A program made the translations under genes and the position numbers. Below, in pieces: positions 59,770 to 63,500 of a stretch of 64,000 nucleotides of DNA (the stretch's first letter is position 1; each line of letters opens with the position of its first letter). The notes below the pieces were generated by a model, which worked only from the letters and a program-made list of their open reading frames with translations, did not search any database and was not told the DNA's origin. Origin of the DNA: Gordonibacter massiliensis (ex Traore et al. 2017) (lineage in GTDB: Bacteria > Actinomycetota > Coriobacteriia > Coriobacteriales > Eggerthellaceae); assembly GCA_900170005.1 (NCBI GenBank), contig LT827128.1, positions 806,001 through 870,000 of the forward strand, read 5' to 3'.

Positions 59770-60714
59770 TTACGTAAGAGGCTGCAACCGGCCGAGGGCG
59801 GCTTTGCGCTCGGCCTCCTTGCGCGCCTGGACGTCGGCGATGACGACGCGCCAGGTGCGGGCCAGGGCACGGCGCTGCCCGTCGTCCAGCCGGCTCCACA
59901 GCTGCGCGCGCGCGAGGGCGTCGATGGTGCGGGCGACGGCCCGCTGCTTCCGTTTCCCCTGCTCGGTGGCGGCGGCGAACACGGCCTTGCGATCGTTCGG
60001 GCTGGCCAGGCGAACGACCCAGCCGCGCTCGGCTAGGCGGTCCACCGCGCGGGCCACGGCCACGGCCGTCATCTGCAGCTGGCCCGCGATGTCGCCGATG
60101 CGCAGCGGCTCGCCCACCTCGCCGAGGCGCTGCAGCACGCGGCATTCCGCAAGCGACGCGCCGCACCTCTCGCGCAAGGTCGCCTCCATCGCCCGCTTCA
60201 CCAGCTCCAGCGACACGAGCGCGCGCGAGGCGGCGAAGCGCCCGGGCTCGTCGGCCGAGAGCGGCGGGTCGATGGAAGCGCCGGCCGCGATGGCCGCCTC
60301 CAGGATGGCGCGATGGTCGGCGTCTTCGGTGGGAAAGAGCGCGTAGAGGCGCTCCACGATGGACTCGTTCGCCCGGGCCACATGGGCCGTGCCGGCCTCG
60401 GTGATGCGGGCGGTGCGCACGCGGCCGTCGGCGCCTTCGTCGCGGCGGCGCTCGGCGAGGCCGGCCTCCTCGAGCGCGTTCACGGCCTGCGTGACCACGT
60501 TGGGCTTGAGGTCGAGCAGCGCGCCGAGGTCCGATTGGGCGACGCCGCGCTCCCCGGCGGCCAGCAGTTTCACCAGCATGCGGTACTGCGTGACGTTGAG
60601 CGGGCTCGCGGTGGCCAGCCCGCTCTTGAGCGCGCGGTGGGTGAGGTCGAACGCGACGAAGAACGTCGAGTCGAGCTCGAGGTCTCTTTCGTCGTGCGCT
60701 AGTTGTGCGGTCAT
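59770..60714 (-). CDS. tandem MarR-domain transcriptional regulator
   Basis: 314 residues, about twice a MarR protein. The first MarR winged helix (about 20-155) reads QSDLGALLDLKPNVVTQAVN and RVRTARITEAG. A second (about 165-310) reads RIGDIAGQLQMTAVAVARAV and RKAVFAAATEQG. A single chain could thus mimic a MarR dimer. The ATG at 60714 has GAGGAG upstream; an in-frame ATG at 60729 is also possible. A palindrome in the upstream region suggests autorepression. Confidence 0.85.
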   Translation of the reverse strand: MTAQLAHDERDLELDSTFFVAFDLTHRALKSGLATASPLNVTQYRMLVKLLAAGERGVAQSDLGALLDLKPNVVTQAVNALEEAGLAERRRDEGADGRVRTARITEAGTAHVARANESIVERLYALFPTEDADHRAILEAAIAAGASIDPPLSADEPGRFAASRALVSLELVKRAMEATLRERCGASLAECRVLQRLGEVGEPLRIGDIAGQLQMTAVAVARAVDRLAERGWVVRLASPNDRKAVFAAATEQGKRKQRAVARTIDALARAQLWSRLDDGQRRALARTWRVVIADVQARKEAERKAALGRLQPLT

Positions 60715-60731
60715 GCGGCTCCTCGTCAAAT

Positions 60732-60872: not shown

Positions 60873-60932
60873 GCCTTGTCGCCCGAAACGGTCGGTTTTT
60901 CAGCGAAAACCGACCGTTTCGGGCGACAAGGC
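60873..60932. repeat. perfect 27-bp hairpin
   Basis: GCCTTGTCGCCCGAAACGG... (60873-60899) pairs without mismatch to 60906-60932; the loop is TCAGCG. The stem is too GC-rich at its base and lacks a T-run, so it is not an ordinary terminator; it may be a repeat-family copy or regulatory structure. It lies in the gene-poor 60715-61169 interval, which otherwise has only GC-rich sequence before the kinase gene. Confidence 0.85.
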
Positions 60933-61169: not shown

Positions 61170-63500
61170 ATGGGCGCTATCACCTTGCAGCATTTCCCTT
61201 GGGCGGGCATCTGCTTCGCGGTGTTCTTGGCGGTGTGCGGCATGCTGTTGGAGCCGCGGTTCGATCGGAAGGGGACCGCCCTCGCGGCGGCCGGCTTCTT
61301 GGCGGCGATCGCGTCGGCGCAGGCGGCCCTGCTGCTTTCCGGGCAGGACGAGACGCTCGTCCTCACGCTGCTGCCCCTGACCGCGTACCTCCCGGCCATC
61401 GTCGGCGTGCACGCGCTATCGCGCGCGGGCTTCTTCCAGACGGTTGCCGTGTGGGCCGTGGGGGCCATGGCGTCCCTCGTTCTGGCGTTTCTGCAGAAGC
61501 TGCTGATGGCGGCTCCGCTGGGCCCCGCGTCCCCGACGGGCGACCTCGTCCACACGGGGTTCGTGCTGCTGGCCGCCGCCGCGCTGGCCTTCGCCGTGCT
61601 CCGGTGGCTCCGTGCGCCGTTTCGCTCCGGCGCCCTGCACCGCGACGGCGCCTGGCCTTCCGTGTGCCTGGCTGCCCTCGCGGTGTTCCTCCTGCTCTCC
61701 TATTTCGAGGCGGCTGCGGCCGATCCGACGGTGACGGCGCTGGCCTTCCTGGCCGCCGTCTCCGTCTTCGCCATCGCGGTGCGGACGCTCGCGGCATCGG
61801 CGTCGGCACGGCGCGCGCGCGAGGCCGAGCGGGCGCTTGCGGCGCAGCTCGACGTCCAGCGCGGGGAATACGAAAGCGTGCTCGAGAAGCTGCAGGCGGG
61901 GCGCGCCTTCCGGCACGACCTGCGCCACCACCTCAAGGTGCTGGAAGGCCTTGTCGGCGAGGAGGGCGGTGGGCGCGCGGCCAGCTATATCGACGGCCTC
62001 GGCGCGCAGCTTCGCGCGACCGAGCAGGAATCCTATTGCGACAACCCGGCGGCCAACGCCCTGCTGGCCTTCTACTTGGGTCAGGCGCGGGAGGCGGGGT
62101 GCGCCGTGACAGCGAAGGCCTCGATACCCGCCGCCATCCCCTTCGACGAGCTGGACGTGTGCGTGGTGCTGGGCAACGCGCTGGAGAACGCCCTGCGCGC
62201 CTGCCGGGAGATCCCGGAGGCGGACGGGCGCTCCATCGACGTCCTCGCCGTGTTCGAGGACGATCGGCTGCTCGTGTCCGTCGAGAACCCGTGCGCCGAG
62301 CCGGTGCGTTTCGGCGCGGACGGGTTCCCGATCGCGCCGCAGCGGGAGGGGCACGGCGTGGGGCTCAGGAGCGTCGGGGCGGTGGCGAGGAAGTACCGCG
62401 GCCTGCTGCGCTGCTCGTGCGACGAGGGGACGTTCCGGCTGCAGGCGGCGCTTGTCGACAGCGCAACGGAAGCGCCCGCGCCCGAGAGGAGGCGCACGTC
62501 CACGCGCCGGATGGCGCAGGGATCGCTGCCGCTCGCCTGCGTCCTGCTCTGCGTGGCCGCGAGCATGCCGATGATGGCGCAGGCCTCGGAATACGTGCTG
62601 GGGTCGGGTCCGTTCGCGCGCGTGGCCGCGTCGAGGGTGGAGGGTTTCAGGTGGGGCGATACGGGGTTTCGCGCCGTCGTGCCCCGCGTGGAGGACCTGT
62701 CCTCCGGGGCCGCAAACGAGGGGGCCGGCGAATCCGGCGCCGACGGGATCGAACCCGCCGCATCCGAGCCCGATGACGCGGCCCAGCCGGAAGCATCGGC
62801 CGCCTTCGAGGTGGATCCGCCCGCCTCCGGTTCGGTTTCGTGGGAGAGCGGCGGAGAAGGGGGGCAGACGGGCGATCCGGGGCTCGTCGTTCCGGTCGTG
62901 CCCAAGCCTCCCGAGGCGGCGGACCCGGATGGGCCTTCGGGCGGGGCCCTGTCCGAAGGCATCGACGACATCAACCGCCGGATGGAAGAGTACGTCGCCA
63001 CGATGCGCGACAAGTTCCTGTGGTACGCCGCGCGCAAGTACCAGGGATACGTCGGGATGGACGTAACCTATCGCGTGGTGCGCAACGACGGGGCGCTTCT
63101 GTCCATCCGCTTCGACGGCGTGCTCAACGCGGGCGGCTCGGGCGAGTACGCGCGCACGTTCACGCTGGACAAGCGCACGGGCGCGGTGCTCGAGCTGGCC
63201 GACCTGTTCGTCCCCGGCAGCGACTACGTGTCCGTCGTCAGCGCCGAGGTGCTGCGGCAGATGGTGGAGCGCGTGGAAGCAGGCGAGGCCGACTACTTCG
63301 TGCTCGGCGGCATCTGGCCGGCGAGCGACTGCTTCACGGCGATCGACCCCGACCAGCATTTCTACATCGACGAGCACGACCGCCTGGTCATCGCGTTCGA
63401 CAAGTACGAGATCGGGCCGGGCAAGGACGGCGCGCCGGAGTTCGCCGTGCCCGCCGAGGCGCTCGCGGGCATCCTGCGCACTCCGACGCTGCTCGGATGA
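61170..63500 (+). CDS. GHKL sensor kinase fused to an exported RsiV-like (DUF3298) domain
   Basis: 776 residues. An N-terminal membrane domain of seven or so helices (1-210), a dimerisation region with His249 in FRHDLRHHLKVLEGL, and an AgrC/LytS-type GHKL ATPase with N box GNALENALRA (335-344) and GHGVGLRSVG. At about 448-472 a further hydrophobic helix appears, then an Asp/Glu/Pro-rich linker and a C-terminal domain (about 605-776) with YRVVRNDGALLSIRFDGVLN and FYIDEHDRLVIAFDKYEIGP, typical of DUF3298/RsiV. GAAGGAGGAGGG precedes the ATG. No response regulator is in the window. Confidence 0.8.
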   Translation: MGAITLQHFPWAGICFAVFLAVCGMLLEPRFDRKGTALAAAGFLAAIASAQAALLLSGQDETLVLTLLPLTAYLPAIVGVHALSRAGFFQTVAVWAVGAMASLVLAFLQKLLMAAPLGPASPTGDLVHTGFVLLAAAALAFAVLRWLRAPFRSGALHRDGAWPSVCLAALAVFLLLSYFEAAAADPTVTALAFLAAVSVFAIAVRTLAASASARRAREAERALAAQLDVQRGEYESVLEKLQAGRAFRHDLRHHLKVLEGLVGEEGGGRAASYIDGLGAQLRATEQESYCDNPAANALLAFYLGQAREAGCAVTAKASIPAAIPFDELDVCVVLGNALENALRACREIPEADGRSIDVLAVFEDDRLLVSVENPCAEPVRFGADGFPIAPQREGHGVGLRSVGAVARKYRGLLRCSCDEGTFRLQAALVDSATEAPAPERRRTSTRRMAQGSLPLACVLLCVAASMPMMAQASEYVLGSGPFARVAASRVEGFRWGDTGFRAVVPRVEDLSSGAANEGAGESGADGIEPAASEPDDAAQPEASAAFEVDPPASGSVSWESGGEGGQTGDPGLVVPVVPKPPEAADPDGPSGGALSEGIDDINRRMEEYVATMRDKFLWYAARKYQGYVGMDVTYRVVRNDGALLSIRFDGVLNAGGSGEYARTFTLDKRTGAVLELADLFVPGSDYVSVVSAEVLRQMVERVEAGEADYFVLGGIWPASDCFTAIDPDQHFYIDEHDRLVIAFDKYEIGPGKDGAPEFAVPAEALAGILRTPTLLG

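Follow-up and report, generated by a model that had tools for sequence, protein, structure and literature searches.

A gene of Gordonibacter massiliensis appears to encode a histidine kinase whose catalytic domain is followed by a domain resembling RsiV of Bacillus subtilis. The stretch of DNA that contains it (64,000 nucleotides, called the window below) raises the questions of whether the two parts truly form one protein, how such a protein arose and what it may sense. Three genomes recur in the analysis, namely: G000, the window's own genome, and G007 and G750, which carry related fused genes. The class of G750 is the Tissierella class in our survey grouping and Tissierellia in the NCBI taxonomy.

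Architecture of the fused protein

The reading frame spans positions 61170-63497 of the + strand, with the stop codon ending at 63500, and lies on a single contig of a 3.95-Mb genome (Table 1). GC content by codon position is unbroken from start to stop, and the same frame is kept through the linker. The first-pass annotation had described a GHKL kinase core with a seven-helix N-terminus, an additional membrane helix behind the kinase and an exported domain. Seven hydrophobic segments are indeed present by hydropathy, and the kinase core is borne out by the H, N and G boxes and by a Pfam HATPase_c_5 match above the cut-off (E 8e-15, residues 327-426). His249 is the probable phospho-acceptor. 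The additional helix corresponds to the segment at residues 452-470, which hydropathy analysis shows to have five Lys or Arg in the preceding 12 residues and none in the following 12; because of this charge pattern, the C-terminus should lie outside the cell, as had been proposed. The kinase part by itself has no PDB match at E 0.01 in a sequence search. An internal start at Met448 would yield an exported protein of its own, but this reading fails because G007 and G750 have no Met at this position.

Table 1. Positions of the fused gene, its parts and adjacent elements (window numbering, except for the last row).
Feature	Location	Strand	Remarks
MarR-family regulator, divergent from kinase gene	59770-60729	-	two MarR matches in one chain
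Perfect inverted repeat, 27-nt arms, 6 nt between	60873..60932	.	between divergent MarR-family and kinase genes
Fused gene (GHKL histidine kinase, membrane segment, linker, RsiV-like ectodomain)	61170..63500	+	776 aa, ATG start
Seven N-terminal hydrophobic segments, residues 4-204	61179..61781	+	hydropathy
H-box FRHDLRHHL, residues 247-255	61908..61934	+	motif
GHKL ATPase domain, residues 327-426; N-box GNALENA (335-341), G-box GHGVG (394-398)	62148..62447	+	Pfam HATPase_c_5, motifs
Eighth membrane segment, residues 452-470, positive flank before	62523..62579	+	hydropathy; predicted cytoplasm to outside
Ala-Gln-Ala, residues 470-472, aligned to RsiV 64-66	62577..62585	+	alignment; putative cleavage site
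Juxtamembrane stretch and first strand, about residues 473-508; RsiV switch helix not conserved	62586..62693	+	alignment
Gly/Ala/Pro/Glu/Ser-rich low-complexity linker, about residues 509-592, insertion relative to RsiV	62694..62945	+	G750 has a similar one
RsiV-like ectodomain core, residues 597-769; DUF3298 at 63198-63455	62958..63476	+	phmmer, NCBIfam, Pfam
Exact 43-bp tandem duplication in linker-coding region of G007 gene	L033 4121-4208 (G007)		shifts ectodomain out of frame

Several comparisons bear on the identity of the C-terminal domain. Pfam places DUF3298 at residues 677-762 (E 4.3e-12, 47.2 bits against a curated cut-off of 24.1). When residues 597-769 are compared with solved structures using phmmer, the best match is B. 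subtilis RsiV (5JEN, E 3.8e-17), and the next DUF3298-type structure is 3cyg at E 1e-3. A profile built from the three fused C-termini reaches 5JEN at E 1.1e-27. In addition, the NCBIfam RsiV model (NF052658) matches the window protein at E 2.9e-33 over model positions 109-281 of 286, and the G750 protein at E 2e-45. Both scores are under the cut-off of 250 bits (115 bits for the window protein), as is expected for the window protein, since it has a kinase where RsiV has its N-terminus. The membrane segment, the small-x-Ala site and the Pro99 strand also align with 46 RsiV-like rows. As judged from these sequence comparisons, the RsiV/DUF3298-type label given earlier holds and the ectodomain is specifically RsiV-like, beyond a generic DUF3298 domain. 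In the structural comparison with RsiV that had been suggested, a Foldseek search with the ectodomain model ranks 5JEN first and second (E 2e-3 to 3e-3, TM about 0.2), which is not structural proof; the AlphaFold models, made from two rows (the window protein and Tissierella RsiV), have a mean pLDDT of 37 for ectodomain and full length alike and are too poor to support the fold independently.

Overall, the fused proteins share with RsiV a membrane segment, a signal-peptidase-like site, a first strand, a helix and a DUF3298 core in equal order, together with five positions of the lysozyme face. In place of the sigma-binding N-terminus of RsiV they have a GHKL kinase with seven helices and about 430 residues; they also have a linker of about 85-100 residues between the first strand and the first helix, and the window protein has lost the switch helix. 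A scan of named genome contigs, from which records near the window genome are possibly absent, returned RsiV of Tissierella creatinophila as the sole relative (E 3.3e-65 to 5JEN); its gene lies downstream of a frame that we take to encode a sigma factor. The annotation of Bacillus badius places an RsiV-family protein next to an RNA polymerase sigma factor. No ECF sigma gene was noticed on reading the frames that neighbour the fused gene.

The layout of the protein can be compared with other known systems. PASTA Ser/Thr kinases and BlaR1/MecR1 have a cytoplasmic catalytic part, a membrane segment and a C-terminal outside sensor; the likeness is one of layout, as these are other enzymes with other sensors and not histidine kinases. 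AgrC-type kinases have six to seven N-terminal membrane helices, and the fused proteins resemble the AgrC/HK10-type GHKL kinases that work with LytTR regulators in their multi-helix N-terminus and their H, N and G boxes. LbpA of C. difficile is a membrane-bound RsiV-type lysozyme-binding part that likewise lacks the sigma-binding domain, but it is not described as joined to a kinase (PMC9044953).

Relatives and origin of the fusion

An intact homologue is present in G750 (791 residues, L089:1426-3801). It is in frame, has the same architecture and is 39% identical to the window protein, the domain being more similar (54.9%) than the kinase (39.1%). The G007 orthologue is closer (70.5% in the domain, 57.1% in the kinase), but its residues 1-552 match in one frame and residues 529-775 in another. 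The break is due to the duplication listed in Table 1, which is the top-scoring tandem array within the 11 kb examined around the gene. The kinase frame runs on through the membrane segment, A-R-A and the first strand, all of which precede the duplication. As read from the frames, one flank of the gene has cytochrome-like, flavoprotein-like, membrane protein and MarR-like frames in equal order in G007 and the window. Changes between G000 and G007, and also G750, fall mostly at codon position 3. Since the domain of G007 is still 70.5% identical and the changes are mostly of this kind, the break, seen in one genome of the species, would be recent (decay), reversible (phase variation) or an assembly fault.

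A frameshift in the linker of a close relative had been named at the outset as evidence that would count against the fusion. Such a frameshift does occur in G007, but the fusion stands, because it is in frame in G000 and G750 and the domain shows higher identity than the kinase. The probability that a sequencing or assembly error has joined two genes is therefore close to nil. The different frames of the two parts in G007 would fit such an error, but the same in-frame fusion is found in an independent genome of another class, the window gene shows continuous codon-position GC through the linker on one contig, and the frame change in G007 is an exact duplication behind a membrane segment still in the kinase frame. 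The same data bear on whether the C-terminal domain is a dispensable passenger, with sensing by the seven-helix domain only. This would agree with the frame-breaking duplication ahead of the domain in G007 and with the absence of the domain from 58 related kinases (see below), yet we consider it quite improbable: conservation is higher in the domain than in the kinase for G007 and for G750, and codon position 3 is the most variable.

The kinase-RsiV fusion is real and rare. Within the window's family, the C-terminal region is found in 2 of 138 genomes (G000 and G007), and within its class PF11738 matches 11 of 396 genomes, the other nine having no kinase match in the frames around the matches; in the class of G750 the C-terminal profile matches 104 of 391 genomes and, among frames of at least about 440 residues, is fused in one, G750, which is also the only match among 16 genomes of its own family at E 0.001 and among 31 of its own order at E 1e-10, while in its phylum 24 of 398 genomes match at E 1e-20, the 23 others with frames of 285-436 residues (these groups overlap, and the counts are not additive). 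In G000 itself, the sole PF11738 match and the sole PF14501 match at E 0.001 are both the window kinase.

A check for further fusions covered 51 loci, namely: eight weak DUF3298 matches, one long frame, 38 long-frame rows, and L050, L051, L083 and L058. Rows from the Tissierella class were of at least about 440 residues, and frames were searched with profiles of the fused kinases, the unfused kinases and the RsiV-like domain. Among these 51 loci, in 13 of which the domain profile itself falls short of E 0.01, kinase and domain occur in one frame only in L058 (the G750 gene) and in the control P0001. The other kinase match is a separate frame of 253 residues (L155, E 0.004). None of three protein scans of viral contigs turned up a relative; one of two pattern scans returned a short end fragment resembling RsiV (L140) and two other frames without RsiV likeness by eye, and the second returned nothing. 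Literature searches of the open PMC set, which lacks most subscription papers, returned no paper whose title or abstract opening describes such a fusion.

The placement of a sensor behind the catalytic domain, which the first-pass annotation called unusual, is indeed without parallel among 58 related kinases that are unfused, none of which carries such a domain. Of these, 29 come from the window's order and 29 from the class of G750; they are a part of the rows that the homology searches listed, with L034 added. Their frames end between 2 residues before and 64 residues after position 430, and at most 26 residues after it in 56 of the 58, whereas the fused proteins add about 345-365 residues, including the membrane segment and the ectodomain. 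In a tree of the kinases, the three fused proteins form one clade (100/100), nested in a larger group (96/90) together with all 29 of the G750-class kinases and three of those from the window's order. The three fused domains also form one clade (100/99) when compared with 46 RsiV-like proteins and B. subtilis RsiV. In each tree a long branch leads to the fused clade (0.89 for the kinase, 1.45 for the domain), and 26 rows of the kinase tree have an unusual letter make-up. The 46 domain rows remain from 50 collected, after L057 (the Tissierella protein again, so that Tissierella is outside the 46), L073 (wrong extraction), L080 (truncated) and L083 (a 534-residue exported protein) were dropped before alignment. 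As the trees of both halves place the three fused proteins in one clade, the RsiV anchor and ectodomain were probably joined only once to an AgrC-like kinase. The fusion probably arose in Bacillota and was then transferred, a direction we infer because RsiV-like proteins are frequent there in the surveys.

Regulators and neighbouring genes

In G750, the stop codon of the kinase gene overlaps the start of a gene for a 240-residue protein with Response_reg and LytTR domains, a further likeness to the AgrC/HK10-type systems; the NCBIfam AgrC model itself matches the G750 protein weakly (E 5.8e-8, 32 bits against a cut-off of 500). The regulator gene is followed by one for a SipW-type signal peptidase (TIGR02228 at E 4.3e-21, above its cut-off; NCBIfam SipW below its cut-off). 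Beyond the signal peptidase lie two proteins whose leaders we take to be of SipW type, the first of them with DUF6273, and one protein with a pilin-isopeptide domain. The whole gene run, headed by the fused kinase and the LytTR regulator, extends over L089 1426-13017.

Unlike in G750, no LytTR match is found near the fused gene of G000: all six LytTR matches of that genome fall outside the window, in agreement with the earlier remark that the window holds no partner regulator. Three of the six proteins carry receiver domains; each is 25-27% identical to the G750 regulator, and the closest one is not distinguishable. No kinase was noticed on reading the frames of 11-12 kb around these three genes. 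Two of the G000 regulators, at 1.74 and 2.28 Mb, are presumably AgrA-like. On L144 1-6681 (at about 2.27 Mb of G000) a receiver-LytTR gene, with no kinase noticed, lies near the gene for an exported protein of very large size that matches SpaA, DUF11 and InlB repeats.

Cleavage site, ligand and proposed signalling

In RsiV, lysozyme binding frees amphipathic helices, signal peptidase then cuts between residues 66 and 67, and RasP completes the proteolysis; residues 67-86 shield the cleavage site (PMC6066255 and PMC9044953). Deletion or disruption of this protective region leads to constitutive cleavage (PMC6066255). In G000 and G007, an A-x-A motif stands directly behind the membrane segment (A-Q-A at 470-472, and A-R-A). 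In G750, the position of RsiV Ala64 is Leu, and the site would be LHA or, two residues on, AVA. The alignment pairs LHAVASVPVIGNMVQLLDI after the membrane segment of G750 with AQAMSKIPVIGKIVKAITF of RsiV, and G750 is hydrophobic at each of the RsiV switch-helix positions compared. In the window protein the hydrophobic residues of this helix are mostly replaced (Met67 by Ser, Val72 by Gly, Ile73 by Ser, Ile80 by Ala and Phe82 by Ser), and the hydrophobic positions of the protective amphipathic helix are largely lost in both G000 and G007. The juxtamembrane hydrophobic moment is no higher than in shuffled sequences for four of five proteins, including those of the window and G750 and Tissierella RsiV, and B. 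subtilis RsiV separates weakly from its shuffles (97 of 2000). Gating may thus differ between G750 and the G000/G007 pair, as far as the alignment indicates.

With such a site, the gene could encode a polyprotein that signal peptidase always cuts after Ala472, yielding an ordinary kinase and a secreted RsiV-like sponge or inhibitor of lysozyme, with no signalling between the parts; the membrane-bound LbpA of C. difficile would be a partial parallel. The A-x-A behind the membrane segment and the unconserved protective helix of G000 and G007 are consistent with this, as are the constitutive cleavage of RsiV when this region is disrupted and the inhibition of lysozyme by the RsiV ectodomain (PMC5014341). 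We nevertheless regard it as unlikely. The fusion is still in frame in G000 and G750 despite 39% identity, and the older state may have been gated, because G750 retains the hydrophobic switch-helix positions.

If the ectodomain instead acts as the receptor of the kinase, its ligand may be approached through the lysozyme face of RsiV. We compared 17 RsiV positions, namely the 16 contacts in Table 2 of PMC5014341 and Pro259; the G007 row has no coverage at positions 88 and 93. In the alignment, five of the 17 are kept in all three fused proteins (Ser169, Tyr255, Glu256, Pro259 and Gly260), Ser169 corresponding to Ser657 of the window protein. The remaining 12 are not, including Ser168 (Gly), His139 (Tyr), Asp225 (Trp) and Tyr261 (Lys, Arg or Ser). 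Of the 46 RsiV-like proteins aligned, 26 have Tyr at position 261 and 32 have Ser at position 169. In RsiV, S169W alone raises the Kd for lysozyme above 50 uM, while Y261A alone does not weaken lysozyme binding but reduces sigma-V activation more than its binding would suggest (PMC5014341). It is thus plausible that the fused ectodomain is a receptor for lysozyme or something similar; the first-pass annotation had suggested lysozyme or peptidoglycan damage as the stimulus.

The ligand could also be something other than lysozyme, for instance a fragment of the wall, a hydrolase of bacterial origin or a surface fibre protein that the same system exports, and we hold this as a tentative possibility. 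It would fit the changes at Tyr261, Ser168, His139 and Asp225 alongside a loop, N-x-GGSGEY, common to all three fused proteins, and the SipW-type signal peptidase, the proteins with presumed SipW-type leaders and the pilin-isopeptide protein encoded downstream in G750. The five retained positions of the lysozyme face point the other way, as does the unweakened binding of Y261A, with the proviso on sigma-V activation given above.

Taken together, we think it somewhat probable that the window protein is a GHKL sensor kinase of AgrC-like type to which the RsiV membrane anchor and extracellular receptor were added, probably by one fusion, and that it senses an envelope-directed ligand. The ectodomain would be outside the cell and bind this ligand, for which lysozyme or a lysozyme-like wall hydrolase is the first candidate. 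Once bound, the ligand would alter the state of the membrane segment that connects to the ATPase domain, perhaps together with cleavage by signal peptidase at Ala-x-Ala; the altered segment would change the phosphorylation of a LytTR regulator, which in G000 would be encoded elsewhere in the genome. Signalling would end in the transcription of surface or envelope genes instead of release of a sigma factor. We are doubtful of a more specific version, in which the protein would be a two-component receptor for host or microbial lysozyme with its kinase switched by signal-peptidase cleavage of the C-terminal RsiV module, both the receptor and the switch of the anti-sigma factor having moved onto a phosphorelay.

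RsiV is a directly demonstrated bacterial lysozyme receptor, whose signal is read by destruction of the anti-sigma factor. In the fused protein, a receptor of this kind sits on a histidine kinase. If the fusion works, the receptor would be portable between types of output, and signal peptidase could gate a kinase. A bacterium with this kinase as its only DUF3298 protein could then read lysozyme through a phosphorelay, and the fusion itself is a ready-made chimera in which this can be tested.
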